10,297 nucleotides of DNA, taken from the NCBI GenBank assembly GCA_027064085.1, contig JAMOQH010000102.1, forward strand, positions 1-10,297, in the 5' to 3' direction. The stretch comes from a bacterium (lineage in GTDB: Bacteria > UBP6 > JAFGXH01). Shown here piece by piece: positions 2,608 through 9,416 of the stretch. The position numbers and the translations under genes were made by a program. Position 1 is the stretch's first letter, and each line of letters starts with the position of its first letter. The notes beneath the pieces are model-generated. The model was not told the origin of the DNA, searched no databases, and worked only from the letters and a program-made list of their open reading frames with translations.

Positions 2608-2636
2608 TTGAAATCTAGCTCAAAAAATGTTAAAAG
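2608..2636 (+). promoter_or_regulatory. Candidate promoter of the rdgC two-gene unit
   Basis: TTGAAA (2608-2613) is followed after 17 bases by TAAAAG (2631-2636). The -10 is weak and the surroundings are AT-rich, so this is tentative. It overlaps the ATG at 2627, which supports the downstream ATG at 2663 as the real rdgC start. Confidence 0.35.
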
Positions 2637-2662
2637 TTTATTCCATTTTAAAGGAGATTTTT

Positions 2663-3265
2663 ATGGGAATAATATCAGGTGGTTTAACCTTTAAAGCTTA
2701 TATAGTAGAAGGTTATGATTTTAGGAATATTAACTATGAAGAATGGTTAGATAAATTAAATAAAGGCAAATTCAAAGCAATTAATAAAGAAAAATCAGAA
2801 AAAGAAAGTTTTGGTTTTTCTGATAGTAAAGATATTTTTTTAGAAGAACTAGAATTTAGAAATACTTTTTATGATAATTATATTCATTTTAATTTTAGAA
2901 GAGATACTCTAAAAATGCAAAAATCTGTAATTAATCACTATATTAAAGAAATAGAAAAAACTTTCACTAAAAAAGTTACCAAAAGAGAATTAAAAGAGAT
3001 AAAAGCAAGAGCTGAAGCGAAATATATAAGAGAATTATACCCAACAATTGCTTCTTATGAAATTATTTGGAATGTTGAAACAGGTATTTTATATTTTTTC
3101 ACACAATCAAGAGCAGTAAATGATAAATTTACAGAATGGTTTGAAAGAAATATGGAATTAGAATTAACAGAATTAGAAACAGCTACATTTGCTGCTACAA
3201 TATTAAATGATGAAGAATTAGTTCAGTTTGATAAAAAATCTCCATCATCATTAGTTTCAATATAA
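2663..3265 (+). CDS. rdgC: RdgC-family protein, short form (recombination-associated)
   Basis: The start is the ATG at 2663, with AAGGAG (2651-2656) six bases upstream; the upstream in-frame ATG at 2627 has no ribosome binding site and overlaps a candidate promoter. The 200-residue product begins MGIISGGLTFKAYIVEG. The core (about 75-170) aligns by eye with E. coli RdgC: SVINHYIKEIEK, then KRELKE, then LYPTIASYEIIWNVETGILYF, where E. coli has its own LPRAFS...MMWIDTVNGLIMV and SAKKAE segments. E. coli RdgC (303 residues) forms a ring dimer on double-stranded DNA and limits RecA access; this protein lacks the C-terminal third. Short RdgC-like proteins starting MGF/MGI also occur in Desulfobacterota. 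The next gene begins eight bases downstream, so the two are probably translated together. The family call is good; ring formation or a RecA-related role is inferred. Confidence 0.75.
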   Translation: MGIISGGLTFKAYIVEGYDFRNINYEEWLDKLNKGKFKAINKEKSEKESFGFSDSKDIFLEELEFRNTFYDNYIHFNFRRDTLKMQKSVINHYIKEIEKTFTKKVTKRELKEIKARAEAKYIRELYPTIASYEIIWNVETGILYFFTQSRAVNDKFTEWFERNMELELTELETATFAATILNDEELVQFDKKSPSSLVSI

Positions 3266-3273
3266 GGAGTAAC

Positions 3274-3819
3274 ATGTTAGAAAATAGATCTATTGATATT
3301 AAAAATATGATAGGAAACAAAGATTTTTTTGCAAGAGAGTTTTTAATTTGGCTTTGGTATTCGTCAGAACTAGACCAAGGACATATTAAATTAAAAGATG
3401 ATGATATAACTGTTTTCATAGAAGATAAATTGGTTTTAGAAGAGCTTTTAGGCGACCAAGAGGATTTATTTAAAGGTGGCGTTCCATCTGAATCTCCAGA
3501 AGCAAAATATGCTCTTAGATCTGGTAAAATTATTAAAGAATGTAAAATTAAAATTATAAAAGGAAATGCTTCTTTAAGTGAACAACAATTTGAATGGATT
3601 TTTAATTTTAAGGCAAATGGCTTTAATATCAGTGGAATTAAGCTACCTTCTGTGGATGTTAAAGATTACAAAGAAAAACTTAGACAAAGAATGATGTTTT
3701 TAGAAGAATTATATGATTACTTAGGAGCATTATATAAAAAATTCTTAGAAACTAGATTAGTTAAATCAACATGGGACGAAGAACTACTTAAAATTAAGGA
3801 ATGGATAGGAAATGATTAA
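3274..3819 (+). CDS. Protein of unknown function encoded with the short RdgC
   Basis: This 181-residue protein starts at ATG 3274. Its AAGGAG (3264-3269) overlaps the stop of the preceding rdgC gene, so coupled translation is likely. No signal peptide or membrane segment is visible. The N-terminus has FFAREFLIWLWYSSE (about 18-32), followed by a predicted beta-rich stretch with FIEDKLVLEE. A second region has ALRSGKIIKECKIKI and an FKANGFNISGIKLPSVDV strand-turn segment. The C-terminus (about 130-181) is helical, with KFLETRL and a WDEELLKIKEWI ending. I recall similar proteins next to short RdgC genes in Desulfobacterota but cannot verify this here. The simplest idea is a partner subunit supplying what the short RdgC lacks; no enzymatic motif supports a specific reaction. 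The gene converges on the signal peptidase operon with only 11 bases between stops. Confidence 0.75.
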   Translation: MLENRSIDIKNMIGNKDFFAREFLIWLWYSSELDQGHIKLKDDDITVFIEDKLVLEELLGDQEDLFKGGVPSESPEAKYALRSGKIIKECKIKIIKGNASLSEQQFEWIFNFKANGFNISGIKLPSVDVKDYKEKLRQRMMFLEELYDYLGALYKKFLETRLVKSTWDEELLKIKEWIGND

Positions 3820-3830
3820 ATTTATCAATA

Positions 3831-4619
3831 TTATGGAATCTTTTTAAAAACTCTGTCAAATCTACTTTCACCATCAATTGAGCTATACCAAATAAACAAT
3901 GGTTCACCTTTTACATTTTTTAAAGGAATAGGACCAAAAAATCTGCTATCTTCTGAATCTCCCCTATTGTCTCCAATTACAAAAACCATGTTTTTAGGAA
4001 TAGTATATGAATTTATGAGACTATGCTTATTATATGTTATTTTATTAAATTTATTTACTCCAAAATTGCGAGACATTTGGGGGTAAGGTATCATATCCAA
4101 TGAATATATTACATGTTTTCCAATTGTTTCCAAATGGAGATAAGAACTATAATTAATCCAATATGGAGCTTTTAAACTCTTAAAACTAAATATACTTTTT
4201 TGCCTTATTCTTTTAATTTCTTTATCATTTATATATATAGTACTGTCTATCATTTTAATTTTATCTCCTCCTATTGCAACAACTCTTTTAATAAAGTTTT
4301 CTGTTGTATTTATTGGACTTTCGAAACCCATTTTTTTAGAAAACTCTCTTGTTGGAGGCTCAAAAATTATAATATCTCCCCTTTTAGGCTGATTAAAATC
4401 AAAAATTTTAATATTTGTAAAAGGAATACTCAAACCATAAGTAAATCTACTACTTATTATTCTATCTCCACTCATTAAAGACGGAATCATACTTCCCGAA
4501 GAAATATAATTACTGTCAATAATAAATGCCCTTATAATAAAAACAATAAAAAAAGTTATAAATAAATACCTAAAAAATTTCTTTATATTTATAGGCTTAT
4601 TTGAATCATTATTTTCCAT
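3831..4619 (-). CDS. lepB: Signal peptidase I, second of two tandem genes
   Basis: This is a 262-residue type I signal peptidase, which removes signal peptides from exported proteins at the periplasmic face of the inner membrane. A single membrane segment (about 17-35) precedes the catalytic box. Box B is SGSMIPSL with nucleophile Ser43; box C is RGDIIIFEPP (80-89); box D is FIKRVVAIGGD (109-119) with general base Lys111; box E is GDNRGDSEDSRFFGP (216-230). All catalytic elements are present, with about 105 residues between Lys111 and box E, longer than in minimal enzymes. The start overlaps the end of the upstream signal peptidase gene by 11 bases and no good ribosome binding site is seen, so coupled translation is likely. 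Predicted active. The substrate split between the two enzymes is unknown. Confidence 0.93.
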   Translation of the reverse strand: MENNDSNKPINIKKFFRYLFITFFIVFIIRAFIIDSNYISSGSMIPSLMSGDRIISSRFTYGLSIPFTNIKIFDFNQPKRGDIIIFEPPTREFSKKMGFESPINTTENFIKRVVAIGGDKIKMIDSTIYINDKEIKRIRQKSIFSFKSLKAPYWINYSSYLHLETIGKHVIYSLDMIPYPQMSRNFGVNKFNKITYNKHSLINSYTIPKNMVFVIGDNRGDSEDSRFFGPIPLKNVKGEPLFIWYSSIDGESRFDRVFKKIP

Positions 4620-6165
4620 AAAATATATTAAAAAATCTATTTACTCTTGGAATCCAATTATGAGTAGAAAGCCATATTATCATTGGAGTACCTTTTATAT
4701 TGTTTTTAGGAACAGGGCCCCAAAATCTACTATCAGAAGAGCCATCTCTGTTATCTCCCATTGCAAAACAATATCCTTTTGGCACTTTATAAGGCCCTAC
4801 AATTTTATGAATATTTGCTTCTGGAATATCAACTCTAGAAAATGAGGTTCTTCCATTAATATCAACACCAAAATTTGCAGTCATAGAAACTGGCCAATAA
4901 ACATTAAACTCTACTCCATTTATAACTTGCTTATAAGAAGCAACTTCAGAAGGTAATCCGTATGGATTCATATATGCCATACCACTAGGTTTTTTACTTA
5001 AAACTCTTTTAACTTCTTTATTATTTATAAATAAAACTTGATTTTTAATTTCAATTTTATCCCCCCCTTTTGCAACAATTCTTAGTACAGGAAGAGTAGC
5101 AGGAATATTAACTTTAGAACTGTCTATTTTATAGTTATCTACTAAATCTCCTACTTTTATATTAGAAACATCTTTGTCAGTAACTTTAACATCCGATTTT
5201 TTTACAGAACCAAAAAATCTACTATCAAAATAAGATAAACCAATGTTATCGCTTAATAAAAAATAACTATCTTTAGGTACAACATAAGGCTTTACTACCT
5301 TTAATGGTTTTACTGTAAAATCACCATTTTTATCTGCTCCAAAATAATCTAATAAACCACTAGTTGTAACTGTAGTATAAGTATGGCTTCCTAAGTGCTC
5401 TTCATAAAGAATGCCTACACTTGACTTCATATTATTTTGATGGTCTCTGTCATCAAAATAAAACTTTTGTTTTAAAAGCTTCTTTTTTATAGGTTTTCCA
5501 TTTATATAAACAATATTATCTTTAACTTCAACAGTATCACCTTCATTTGCAATCATTCTTTTTACAAAATTATCAATAACCCCTGCAACTGATATAAATT
5601 TTGGATCTTTATTTTGTGGAGGCTCAAAAATAATAATATCACCTTTATGTGGATGATTCCATTCTAAAAATTTAATATTTTTCCAAGGTATTGAAAATCC
5701 CCAAATAAATTTAGAAGCAAAGATTCTATCTCCTGGCATAATAGTAGGAATCATACTCCCTGTTGGAATATGATAAGTGTCCATTATTAGAGCTCTTAAA
5801 AAGAATACTATAATAACAGCTGATATCAAAGTTTCAATAAATTCTTGAATTGGCCTATCAACAGTATCAGGTAAATATTTATTTAAGACCTCATACGACT
5901 TAATAAGTTGAAGTCTTAATTTAACTTTTCTGCCTTTATCCTTTGATTTAGTTAGACTTTTAAGTGTTTCAAATGTTTGAATCAACTCTTTAGTAGCTTC
6001 AGCAGAAAGTTTTTTCTTGTATCTTTTAATATATTTCTTTTTCATGTTAAGAAATTTTTTAGATTTGGACTTTAACTTAAACCACCCCCACTTTTTAGGA
6101 ACTTTTTTTTCAAAAAGGCCTAGGTTTTCAGGAAATTTATTATCTTGTTTAACAATATTACTCAT
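4609..6165 (-). CDS. lepB: Enlarged signal peptidase I with duplicated box D-E region
   Basis: The start is the ATG at 6165-6163, with GAGGA (6175-6171) five bases upstream; the longer frame to 6198 runs into the promoter. At 518 residues it is far longer than the usual 200-330. Residues 1-100 are a very basic, partly helical cytosolic region. A membrane segment (about 108-127) leads to PTGSMIPTI with Ser137, then KGDIIIFEPP (174-183). The remainder holds two copies of the same half-domain. Copy 1 (about 200-320) has FVKRMIANEGD with Lys202 but a degraded box E, SDNIGLSYFDSRFFG (305-319). Copy 2 (about 359-485) has VLRIVAKGGD, with Leu361 in place of the lysine, but an intact GDNRDGSSDSRFWGP (470-484). 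Spacings of 103 and 109 residues match the 105 in the neighbouring paralogue, so this is a true duplication. Ser137, Lys202 and the second box E would together make one full active site. Activity is inferred. Confidence 0.9.
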   Translation of the reverse strand: MSNIVKQDNKFPENLGLFEKKVPKKWGWFKLKSKSKKFLNMKKKYIKRYKKKLSAEATKELIQTFETLKSLTKSKDKGRKVKLRLQLIKSYEVLNKYLPDTVDRPIQEFIETLISAVIIVFFLRALIMDTYHIPTGSMIPTIMPGDRIFASKFIWGFSIPWKNIKFLEWNHPHKGDIIIFEPPQNKDPKFISVAGVIDNFVKRMIANEGDTVEVKDNIVYINGKPIKKKLLKQKFYFDDRDHQNNMKSSVGILYEEHLGSHTYTTVTTSGLLDYFGADKNGDFTVKPLKVVKPYVVPKDSYFLLSDNIGLSYFDSRFFGSVKKSDVKVTDKDVSNIKVGDLVDNYKIDSSKVNIPATLPVLRIVAKGGDKIEIKNQVLFINNKEVKRVLSKKPSGMAYMNPYGLPSEVASYKQVINGVEFNVYWPVSMTANFGVDINGRTSFSRVDIPEANIHKIVGPYKVPKGYCFAMGDNRDGSSDSRFWGPVPKNNIKGTPMIIWLSTHNWIPRVNRFFNIFYGK

Positions 6166-6187: not shown

Positions 6188-6217
6188 TTGTATATCATAA
6201 ATTAAAATGATATACAA
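6188..6217. promoter_or_regulatory. Perfect inverted repeat (11-bp arms, 8-bp spacer), candidate operator
   Basis: TTGTATATCAT (6188-6198) and ATGATATACAA (6207-6217) are exact reverse complements separated by AAATTAAA. The arms carry the -10 and -35 of the leftward signal peptidase promoter. The centre (about 6202) lies about 63 bases upstream of the predicted start for the rightward ferredoxin gene. A bound dimer could therefore block one gene and act on the other. Because it sits upstream of both predicted start points, it is more likely a DNA site than an RNA hairpin. No known regulator family is assigned. Confidence 0.5.
6189..6217 (-). promoter_or_regulatory. Predicted promoter of the signal peptidase pair
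   Basis: On the minus strand TTGTAT (6217-6212) and TATACA (6194-6189) are 17 bases apart. The start would be near 6182, followed by the GAGGA at 6175-6171. Both hexamers fall inside the arms of the inverted repeat. Confidence 0.5.
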
Positions 6218-6904: not shown

Positions 6905-6937
6905 ATGCCGAAAGATGTTTATAGGCTTGGGGTTTAA
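6905..6937 (+). CDS. Possible 10-residue leader peptide ending just before the FIST gene
   Basis: The ATG at 6905 has AAGGAAAG (6888-6895) about ten bases upstream and opens the peptide MPKDVYRLGV. Its TAA (6935-6937) lies one base before the ATG at 6939. This geometry suits termination-reinitiation, and the downstream ATG has only a weak TTGGGG as a ribosome binding site. So short a frame may be chance. Confidence 0.25.
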   Translation: MPKDVYRLGV

Positions 6938-6938
6938 A

Positions 6939-9416
6939 ATGAAAACATTAAGTTTTTACTATAAAAATAAAAATGATATAACGAAATTTATAAAAAACAA
7001 TGTATTGCCTGATAAAGAAATGCTAATACAAGTTTTCACATCATCTACCAATATAACTTTTATACAAAAATTACAAAAACAATTAAATAAATATCTAAAT
7101 AATCCAAGTATTATAGGAACAACAACAGATGGAATTATTAGTAGTACCGGAGTAGCAACAACAAATTCCACATTAATATCTATTTCTATTTTTGATAATA
7201 CCAAAATAAAAACACTAATTACAGAACATGAAAATAAAGATTATTTTGCTACAGGCAAAAAAATAATAAAAAATTTAATAAAAAAAGATTCAAAAGTTTT
7301 CATTACTTTTACAGATGGCCTTAACACTAATGGAGAGGAATACTTAAAAGGAATCACTTCTGTTGATAAAAATATTATTGTTGCAGGAGGAATGGCCGGA
7401 GATAACACCGCCTTTAAAATAACCTATGTTTTCAATGAAAATAAAATTGTTTCAAATGGAGCTGTGGGAGCTATTCTAAATAGTGATAAGTTAAAGTTAT
7501 TAACAGAATATAGTTTTGATTGGGATGCAATTGGCATAAAAATGAAAATTACTAAATCTGATAAAAACAGGGTATACGAAATAAATCATAAGAAAGCAGT
7601 TGAAGTATATGCAGAGTATCTTGGAAGTAAAACAGCAAAAAATCTTCCTACCATAGGTGTTGAATTCCCATTAATTATGGAAATTGATAATATGAAGATA
7701 GGAAGAGTTGCCATAAATAAAGAAAGTGACGACTCACTATTATTTGCAGGAAATATTAAAAAAGATACAGAAGTTAGATTTGGAGTAGGTAATACTACAA
7801 CTATACTAAATAAAACAATGTCTAGAATTAATTTATTAAAATCTAAACAACCAGAATCAATTTTTGTATACTCTTGCATGGGACGAAGAAGATTTGTTCC
7901 AGAAGTAGTAAAAAAAGAAGCAATAACATTAAATAAAATAACAACTACTATAGGATTTTATACTTATGGTGAATTTTTTCACAAAGATCAAAAAAATTTT
8001 TTACTAAATGAAACAACAACTTTTTTAGCCTTAACAGAAAATACTTTTAAAAATTTAAAAGTTCAAGAAAACAAAACAATAAAAAATATTTCAACAACTT
8101 TAGATACAATATCACATTTAACGAATAAAATATCTAAAGATTTTGAATATATCACCAAACATCAAAAAGAAATCATTGATAAAAGAGTTTATGAATTAAA
8201 AAAATCCTATTATAAAGATATGTTAACTAAATTAAACAACAGAAATCAATTAATTGCTGACTTAAATAATAATAACAATAATAATGCCACGCTAATATTG
8301 TTAAATATAGATAATTTTAGAGAAATAAATGGATTTTATGGTAATATTGTAGGAGATTTTATACTAGTTGAAATATCTAAAAAGTTAACAATAATAATGA
8401 AAAGTTATAATTTTAAACATTATCGATTAAATGCTGATGAATTTGCCTTATTTAAAAAATCAAAAACAAAAATCAATAAATTAGAAACTTTCATTAAAAA
8501 TTTAAATAATGAACTAGGAAGACTCATTATAAATTACCAAAATACAGAACTACATATTAGATTATCAATTGGAGCTGTTTCTAAAAAAACTAATAGACCA
8601 TTAGCTTTTGCTGATTTAGCCTTAAAACAAGCAAGATTAGAAAAGAAATCATATTGCATTTATAATGATAATTTAAAACTAACCGAACAATATTCACAAA
8701 ACATAGAAATGGCCATAAAAATAAAAAATGCAATAAAAAATGATAAAATAATACCCTATTACCAGCCAATTATTGATAATAACACTCAAGAAATAGTTAA
8801 ATATGAAGCACTTGTAAGATTAATAGATGAAAATAACAAAGTAATATCTCCTTTTTTCTTTTTAAATATTTCTCAAAAAATCAGACTATATAATGAAGTA
8901 ACAAAAGCAGTTATAAGACACTCCTTTAAAAAGTTTCATAATACCAAGTATGAATTTTCAGTTAATTTAACGATTAATGATATTAAAAATCCAGAAATAA
9001 TTAATTATATTTTTAAATATATTAAAAAGTACAATGTTGCAAACAGATTAATTTTTGAAATTACAGAAACAGATGAAATAAAAAACTATAAAATATTATT
9101 AGATTTTATAAATAAAATAAAACCTTATGGAGTAAAAATAGCAATTGATGATTTTGGAAGTGGATATTCAAATTTTAATTATATACTAAAAATAAAACCA
9201 GATATTATAAAAATTGATGGTTCTATAATAAAAAATATTGAAAACGATCAAGATTCCTTCTTAATCACTAAAACAATAGTTTCATTTGCTAAAGAAATGA
9301 ATATTAAAACTCTTGCTGAATTTGTAGAAAATGAAAACATATTAGAAATCACTAAAAATCTAGGAGTTGATTACTCCCAAGGATATTATTTTAGTCCCCC
9401 TAAAAAAGATATATAA
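6939..9416 (+). CDS. FIST-GGDEF-EAL protein, predicted c-di-GMP phosphodiesterase
   Basis: The 825-residue product is numbered from ATG 6939, chosen because MKTLSFYY is a natural FIST start; an in-frame ATG at 6915 is the alternative. FIST_N spans about 12-207 (IIGTTTDGIIS, VAGGMAGD) and FIST_C about 224-364 (VYSCMGRRRF, TIGFYTYGEFF); FIST domains are thought to sense small ligands in the cytoplasm. A helical, probably coiled-coil linker (about 370-422) leads to GGDEF (about 425-577). Its signature is NADEF (498-502), so cyclase activity is doubtful. EAL (about 587-822) keeps YEALVRL (Glu623), FSVNLT, FEITE, DDFGSGYS (737-744), KIDGS, the AEFVE glutamate and SQGYYF, so c-di-GMP hydrolysis to pGpG is expected. 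GGDEF may act as a GTP-binding regulator. No membrane segment is seen. A run of seven asparagines (443-449) lies in the GGDEF domain. Confidence 0.92.
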   Translation: MKTLSFYYKNKNDITKFIKNNVLPDKEMLIQVFTSSTNITFIQKLQKQLNKYLNNPSIIGTTTDGIISSTGVATTNSTLISISIFDNTKIKTLITEHENKDYFATGKKIIKNLIKKDSKVFITFTDGLNTNGEEYLKGITSVDKNIIVAGGMAGDNTAFKITYVFNENKIVSNGAVGAILNSDKLKLLTEYSFDWDAIGIKMKITKSDKNRVYEINHKKAVEVYAEYLGSKTAKNLPTIGVEFPLIMEIDNMKIGRVAINKESDDSLLFAGNIKKDTEVRFGVGNTTTILNKTMSRINLLKSKQPESIFVYSCMGRRRFVPEVVKKEAITLNKITTTIGFYTYGEFFHKDQKNFLLNETTTFLALTENTFKNLKVQENKTIKNISTTLDTISHLTNKISKDFEYITKHQKEIIDKRVYELKKSYYKDMLTKLNNRNQLIADLNNNNNNNATLILLNIDNFREINGFYGNIVGDFILVEISKKLTIIMKSYNFKHYRLNADEFALFKKSKTKINKLETFIKNLNNELGRLIINYQNTELHIRLSIGAVSKKTNRPLAFADLALKQARLEKKSYCIYNDNLKLTEQYSQNIEMAIKIKNAIKNDKIIPYYQPIIDNNTQEIVKYEALVRLIDENNKVISPFFFLNISQKIRLYNEVTKAVIRHSFKKFHNTKYEFSVNLTINDIKNPEIINYIFKYIKKYNVANRLIFEITETDEIKNYKILLDFINKIKPYGVKIAIDDFGSGYSNFNYILKIKPDIIKIDGSIIKNIENDQDSFLITKTIVSFAKEMNIKTLAEFVENENILEITKNLGVDYSQGYYFSPPKKDI
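8265..8285 (+). repeat. Triplet repeat encoding seven asparagines
   Basis: Six AAT codons and one AAC in the fourth position lie between the first helix and first strand of the GGDEF domain. Changes in copy number would stay in frame and alter only a loop. Confidence 0.8.

Follow-up and report, generated by a model that had tools for sequence, protein, structure and literature searches.

P0001, a 518-amino acid signal peptidase I (SPase; peptidase family S26), is encoded on the minus strand at positions 4609-6165 of the window, the whole stretch of 10,297 nucleotides that was analysed, which derives from one draft genome of 195 contigs. The reading frame is uninterrupted, and an alternative upstream ATG at position 6198 would extend the protein to 529 amino acids. 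Only one further S26 gene is encoded in this genome, coding for a 262-amino acid paralogue (P0003), the start of which shares 11 bases with the end of P0001 and which lacks the ~100-residue N-terminal extension of P0001. An 833-amino acid FIST-GGDEF-EAL protein is encoded at positions 6915-9416, in which a sensor domain is fused to domains for cyclic-di-GMP synthesis and breakdown. Two adjacent proteins of 212 and 181 amino acids (2627-3819) have no Pfam match above the cut-off. A 98-amino acid ORF (2193-2489), the upstream part of which is absent and which has no Pfam confirmation, is probably a remnant; its tail is presumably similar to the C-terminal end of Rpn/PD-(D/E)XK transposase-like proteins. 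The features of P0001 and of its tandem paralogue are as follows:

4609..6165, minus strand: P0001, internally duplicated signal peptidase I (ORF; PF10502 1.5e-55, TIGR02227 5e-54)
5860..6165, minus strand: charged and helical N-terminal extension, residues 1-102, common to the orthologue P0002 (BLASTP 53% over 20-327; helices in the model)
5782..5859, minus strand: candidate hydrophobic membrane anchor helix, residues 103-128 (sequence; model helix 103-127)
5728..5769, minus strand: box B, residues 133-146, with the nucleophile Ser137 at 5755-5757 (Ser invariant, 44/44)
5617..5658, minus strand: box C, residues 170-183 (Gly175 invariant; PSSM 26.9 bits)
5476..5571, minus strand: D1, box D of copy 1, residues 199-230, with the catalytic Lys202 at 5560-5562 (family alignment)
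5182..5283, minus strand: E1, decayed box E of copy 1, residues 295-328, with Ser305 for the invariant Gly (5251-5253), Ile308 for Arg and one additional residue
5101..5181, minus strand: linker, residues 329-355, with no significant match to box C or the strand following box E
4999..5100, minus strand: D2, box D of copy 2, residues 356-389, with Leu361 for Lys (5083-5085); Arg362 and GGD retained
4705..4788, minus strand: E2, intact box E of copy 2, residues 460-487, GDNRDGSSDSRFWG, with Gly470 at 4756-4758 (82.9 bits; 74% to P0002)
4666..4695, minus strand: core strand following box E (GTPMIIWLS), residues 491-500, occurring once (33.8 bits in copy 2; no match in copy 1)
3831..4619, minus strand: P0003, 262-amino acid tandem paralogue with full Ser, Lys and box E (11-base overlap with the end of P0001)

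Type I signal peptidases employ a Ser-Lys dyad, and box E completes the fold of their active site. P0001 matches PF10502 with 188 bits (1.5e-55; cut-off 22.9) and TIGR02227 with 182 bits (5e-54; cut-off 47). The nucleophile, Ser137, is present in box B, in a column occupied by Ser in 44 of 44 family members. The general base is present as Lys202 in copy 1, with Leu361 at the corresponding position of copy 2, while the GDN box E with the invariant Gly, Ser and Asp and the Arg is complete in copy 2 (470-480). The hydrophobic helix at residues 103-128 is a candidate membrane anchor by sequence and model. By the sequence features examined, P0001 belongs to the S26 signal peptidases.

PF10502 matches the single P0001 frame twice, over overlapping profile ranges (2-159 and 72-167), and BLASTP alignment of copy 1 with copy 2 gives 29% identity over 140 amino acids (E 6e-12). 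Both results bear out the first-pass annotation of this DNA, which had described two tandem copies of the segment from box D to box E. The positions given there for the copies (residues 200-320 at 5568-5206 and 359-485 at 5091-4711) were likewise reproduced, as were the spacings between the Lys or Leu and the box E Gly or Ser of 103 residues in copy 1, 109 in copy 2 and 105 in the paralogue. The same annotation had allowed for the second segment being a standard inserted domain without homology to the first. This does not hold, as the insert in P0001 is homologous to the D-E half of the enzyme and in the long Bacteroidota enzymes that were read the insert occurs with a single box E. The two copies are ~62% alike in their DNA and share no word longer than 14 bases, and are therefore neither fresh nor an artefact of assembly. 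While the draft state of the genome in itself leaves room for an assembly or annotation artefact, misassembly cannot produce copies that have diverged to this extent, the frame is open and its composition even, making such an origin scarcely conceivable. Whether the linker (residues 329-355) contains a degenerate box C, as suggested by the length of the repeat unit (159 residues), was also considered; the best PSSM match, SNIKVGDLVDNYKI, had a shuffle p of 0.35 and the candidate was rejected.

Ten positions of the D-E segment are invariant (44/44) in the family alignment of 44 sequences, and each copy misses a single, different one of them. Copy 1 retains Lys202 and has lost the Gly of the GDN motif (Ser305), while copy 2 has lost the catalytic Lys (Leu361) and retains an intact box E with Gly470. 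These reciprocal losses had been noted in the first-pass annotation, and damage to box E of copy 1 extends to an Arg column conserved in 95% of the family (I308 in copy 1, R473 in copy 2) and to the insertion of one residue between the invariant box E Ser and Asp. The full set of ten invariant residues is present in D1 combined with E2 and in no other combination, and an intact Lys-Gly pair arises only from Lys202 and the box E of copy 2. A search of copy 1 for the strand that follows box E found none (p 0.60), a loss absent from the first-pass annotation, while that of copy 2 scores 33.8 bits.

The closest orthologue among the genomes searched, P0002 (L005:1504-2514, genome G001), is a single-copy protein of 336 amino acids from another genus of the same family. 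Its front part aligns with residues 20-327 of P0001 (53%) and its end aligns again with residues 355-518 (44%; BLASTP), such that P0002 matches N and D1 at one end and E2 and the tail at the other. When scored against a family profile built without P0001 and without P0002, the N-D1-E2 combination obtains 213 bits, compared to 211 for P0002 itself, 202 for N-D2-E2 and 165 for N-D1-E1; with the tails trimmed, the scores are 196 for N-D1-E2, 184 for N-D2-E2 and 164 for N-D1-E1. Segment identities to P0002 are 77% for N, 74% for E2, 45% for E1, 39% for D1 and 43% for D2. The difference between E2 and E1 indicates that the evolutionary rate of the catalytic N region is matched by box E2 and not by E1. 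Support for a duplication with complementary losses comes from the profile scores, from P0002 as a single-copy orthologue and from the columns that are invariant in the family.

In the E. coli SPase I, Gly272 is located beside Lys145, and any side chain at this Gly would clash (PMC4049620). In the pseudo-enzyme SipA, the Lys is lost and Asn occupies the Gly272 position (PMC4049620). Judged by this packing, Lys202 of P0001 would fit Gly470 and not Ser305, and, by analogy, Ser305 and Leu361 would suit each other as dead partners. The SPase core ladder includes a strand (294-298) after box E that neighbours the strand of box C (130-133) (PMC12984324), and on this basis the sheet of boxes B and C could be completed only by the strand following E2.

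These sequence features show a tandem duplication, restricted to this lineage among the genomes searched, of the D-to-E half of the catalytic domain within the gene. By the best explanation, one SPase domain would probably fold from the anchor helix, box B with Ser137, box C, D1 with Lys202, E2 and the last strand, that following E2. The E1-linker-D2 stretch (about residues 275-431), bearing the dead Ser305 and Leu361, would then form a circularly permuted half-domain between D1 and E2, at the position in the chain that domain II occupies in LepB. It may function in substrate handling or may merely be tolerated, and signal peptide cleavage is predicted to proceed by the ordinary Ser-Lys mechanism. 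The more specific arrangement, in which complementary halves provide a single site and the two dead ones associate into a circularly permuted pseudo-half-domain where LepB has domain II, is put forward tentatively, its chances being slightly below even. Several observations count against a composite site. D1 is fast-evolving and, at 39% identity to P0002, is no closer to it than D2 (43%), and copy 1 has kept most of its box E (Asp, Asn, Ser, Asp, Ser and Arg). The composite reading is further limited to one genome, which is a draft.

Structure prediction had been proposed in the first-pass annotation as the means to establish which box E packs against Ser137 and Lys202. In one AlphaFold run the relatives were aligned by unguided MAFFT, whereby the single-copy relatives fell on D1 and E2; in a second, the same relatives were pushed onto E1 by the inclusion of copy 1 fragments in the alignment. 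AlphaFold built either arrangement according to the alignment supplied, both with low confidence, which counts against a composite site, although the composite was the more confident of the two. The composite run has a mean pLDDT of 52.4 and a pTM of 0.42, compared to 42.1 and 0.35 for the E1-forced run, with no overlap between the runs in the mean pLDDT ranges of their five models. The catalytic core (131-230) reaches 68 in the composite and 54 in the E1-forced run, and the packed box E 72.5 and 57.5, respectively. The insert of E1, linker and D2 is mostly below a pLDDT of 50 in the composite and has no confident fold in either run. Low-confidence models of either arrangement match the catalytic fold of SPases and SipA, with Z about 11-13. 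Residues 126-503 of the composite model align with SipA with Z 12.7 and rmsd 2.5 over 122 residues, and residues 127-511 with LepB (1b12) with Z 11.9 and rmsd 3.3 over 153. As AlphaFold follows the alignment it is given, the structures are not decisive, and the difference in confidence only leans towards E2.

These models also bear on the alternative that boxes B, C, D1 and E1 form a full catalytic domain, with D2-E2 as a C-terminal docking or substrate-recognition module. When the relatives are aligned to copy 1, residues 117-339 do fold in an SPase-like manner (SipA Z 13.4, rmsd 4.6, 135 residues), and the Ser, the Lys and most of box E are present in this copy. However, Ser305 occupies the position of the Lys-packing Gly, Arg is replaced by Ile308, a residue is inserted and the strand after box E is lacking, the model confidence is lower (42 vs 52), and the stronger conservation of E2 than of E1 is the opposite of what this alternative needs, rendering it unlikely. 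Of the two readings offered in the first-pass annotation, the composite site across the copies is thus favoured as the more probable, and that of one working copy joined to a new module is disfavoured.

An intact P0003, adjacent to P0001, could perform the housekeeping cleavage, and P0001 therefore need not be active. P0001 might be a non-cleaving protein, SipA-like or decaying, with signal peptide cleavage performed by P0003, and the branch of D1-E1 is the longest of the tree (2.1). This is quite improbable, given that Ser137 and Lys202 are retained in P0001 while SipA has lost both its Ser and its Lys (PMC4049620), that the N region of P0001 is 77% identical to that of P0002 compared to 56% for P0003, and that the frame has remained open across 518 codons. 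It is also conceivable that P0001 requires dimerization, or P0003 as a partner, for its activity, with halves shared between chains, as the overlap between the two genes makes co-expression likely. One chain already contains all of the required parts, however, so that this arrangement would be very surprising. As P0003 has no N-terminal extension and sits on a long branch (1.1), the two enzymes may have divided their duties; with its complete site, P0003 may also take part in the work.

Among the 28 genomes of the phylum that were searched, 24 of which have S26 matches, no second frame with two such overlapping PF10502 stretches was found, and every complete S26 gene other than P0001 is single-copy. 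The same duplication was likewise absent from 108 genomes of relatives and other phyla for which all matches were listed, P0001 standing alone; one 401-amino acid frame in this set has only a small profile overlap (82-103), of the kind described below for the Bacteroidota. Viral contigs were also searched and yielded few further relatives. Among the genomes searched, the D-E duplication arose in the lineage of P0001 only, and a literature search of partial coverage retrieved no report of an internal D-E duplication in signal peptidases. In the phylogenetic tree, a single family-level group contains the two copies together with P0003 and P0002, but three long branches prevent their ordering; the copies as sisters obtain a p-AU of 0.24. 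The derivation of copy 2 from P0003, instead of from P0001 itself, was considered and not retained, as the tree groups all of these sequences but cannot order them.

P0001 resembles the LepB-type SPases (PF10502, TIGR02227, S26) in its candidate anchor, box B Ser, box D Lys, GDN box E and the predicted fold of N-D1-E2, and differs from them in its second D-E half and in the loss of the Lys from one copy and of the box E Gly and Arg from the other. In E. coli LepB (PDB 1b12), domain II is located between boxes D and E, which is also where P0001 has its large insert; LepB, however, has a single copy of each of these boxes, whereas the insert in P0001 is homologous to the catalytic half-domain. 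In the SipA of Streptococcus pyogenes (PDB 4n31), the packing Gly was lost along with the Lys, a pairing also seen in the E1-D2 half of P0001, but SipA is a single-copy protein in which both Ser and Lys are replaced, while P0001 retains Ser137, Lys202 and the full set of active-site residues. P0002 shares the N-terminal extension and the high conservation of the N region and E2 with P0001, and differs in its length and in having no duplication. If the site is composite, P0001 would offer a rare example from nature in which duplication and complementary degeneration took place inside a single enzyme domain and not between genes, and for which a close relative without the duplication is available for comparison. 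It further suggests one route by which an insert at the domain II position may arise, namely from the catalytic half of the enzyme itself.

The long SPases of the Bacteroidota (360-600 amino acids) are similar to P0001 in chain length and in having two PF10502 stretches per frame. In many of these enzymes the stretches overlap (2-100 and 77-168), and they were considered as a parallel duplication, which was rejected: the sequences read have one box E, and the overlap (77-100) corresponds to the ING hairpin of domain II and not to a second D-E unit. No second box E was found in the sample of 99 Bacteroidota genomes, among the matches listed or the sequences read, and P0001, with two boxes D and two boxes E, does not share this layout of a single box E and a non-homologous insert. 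In the Bacteroidota SPases L059-L065, PF10502 positions 77-100 are matched twice, as the INGE hairpin at the end of domain II resembles the hairpin that follows box D; this likeness could be the result of convergence or of an old partial repeat. One in-frame TAG was read through in the S26 gene of another member of the phylum (G017:C117:898-1524), which may reflect a pseudogene, a sequencing error or recoding.
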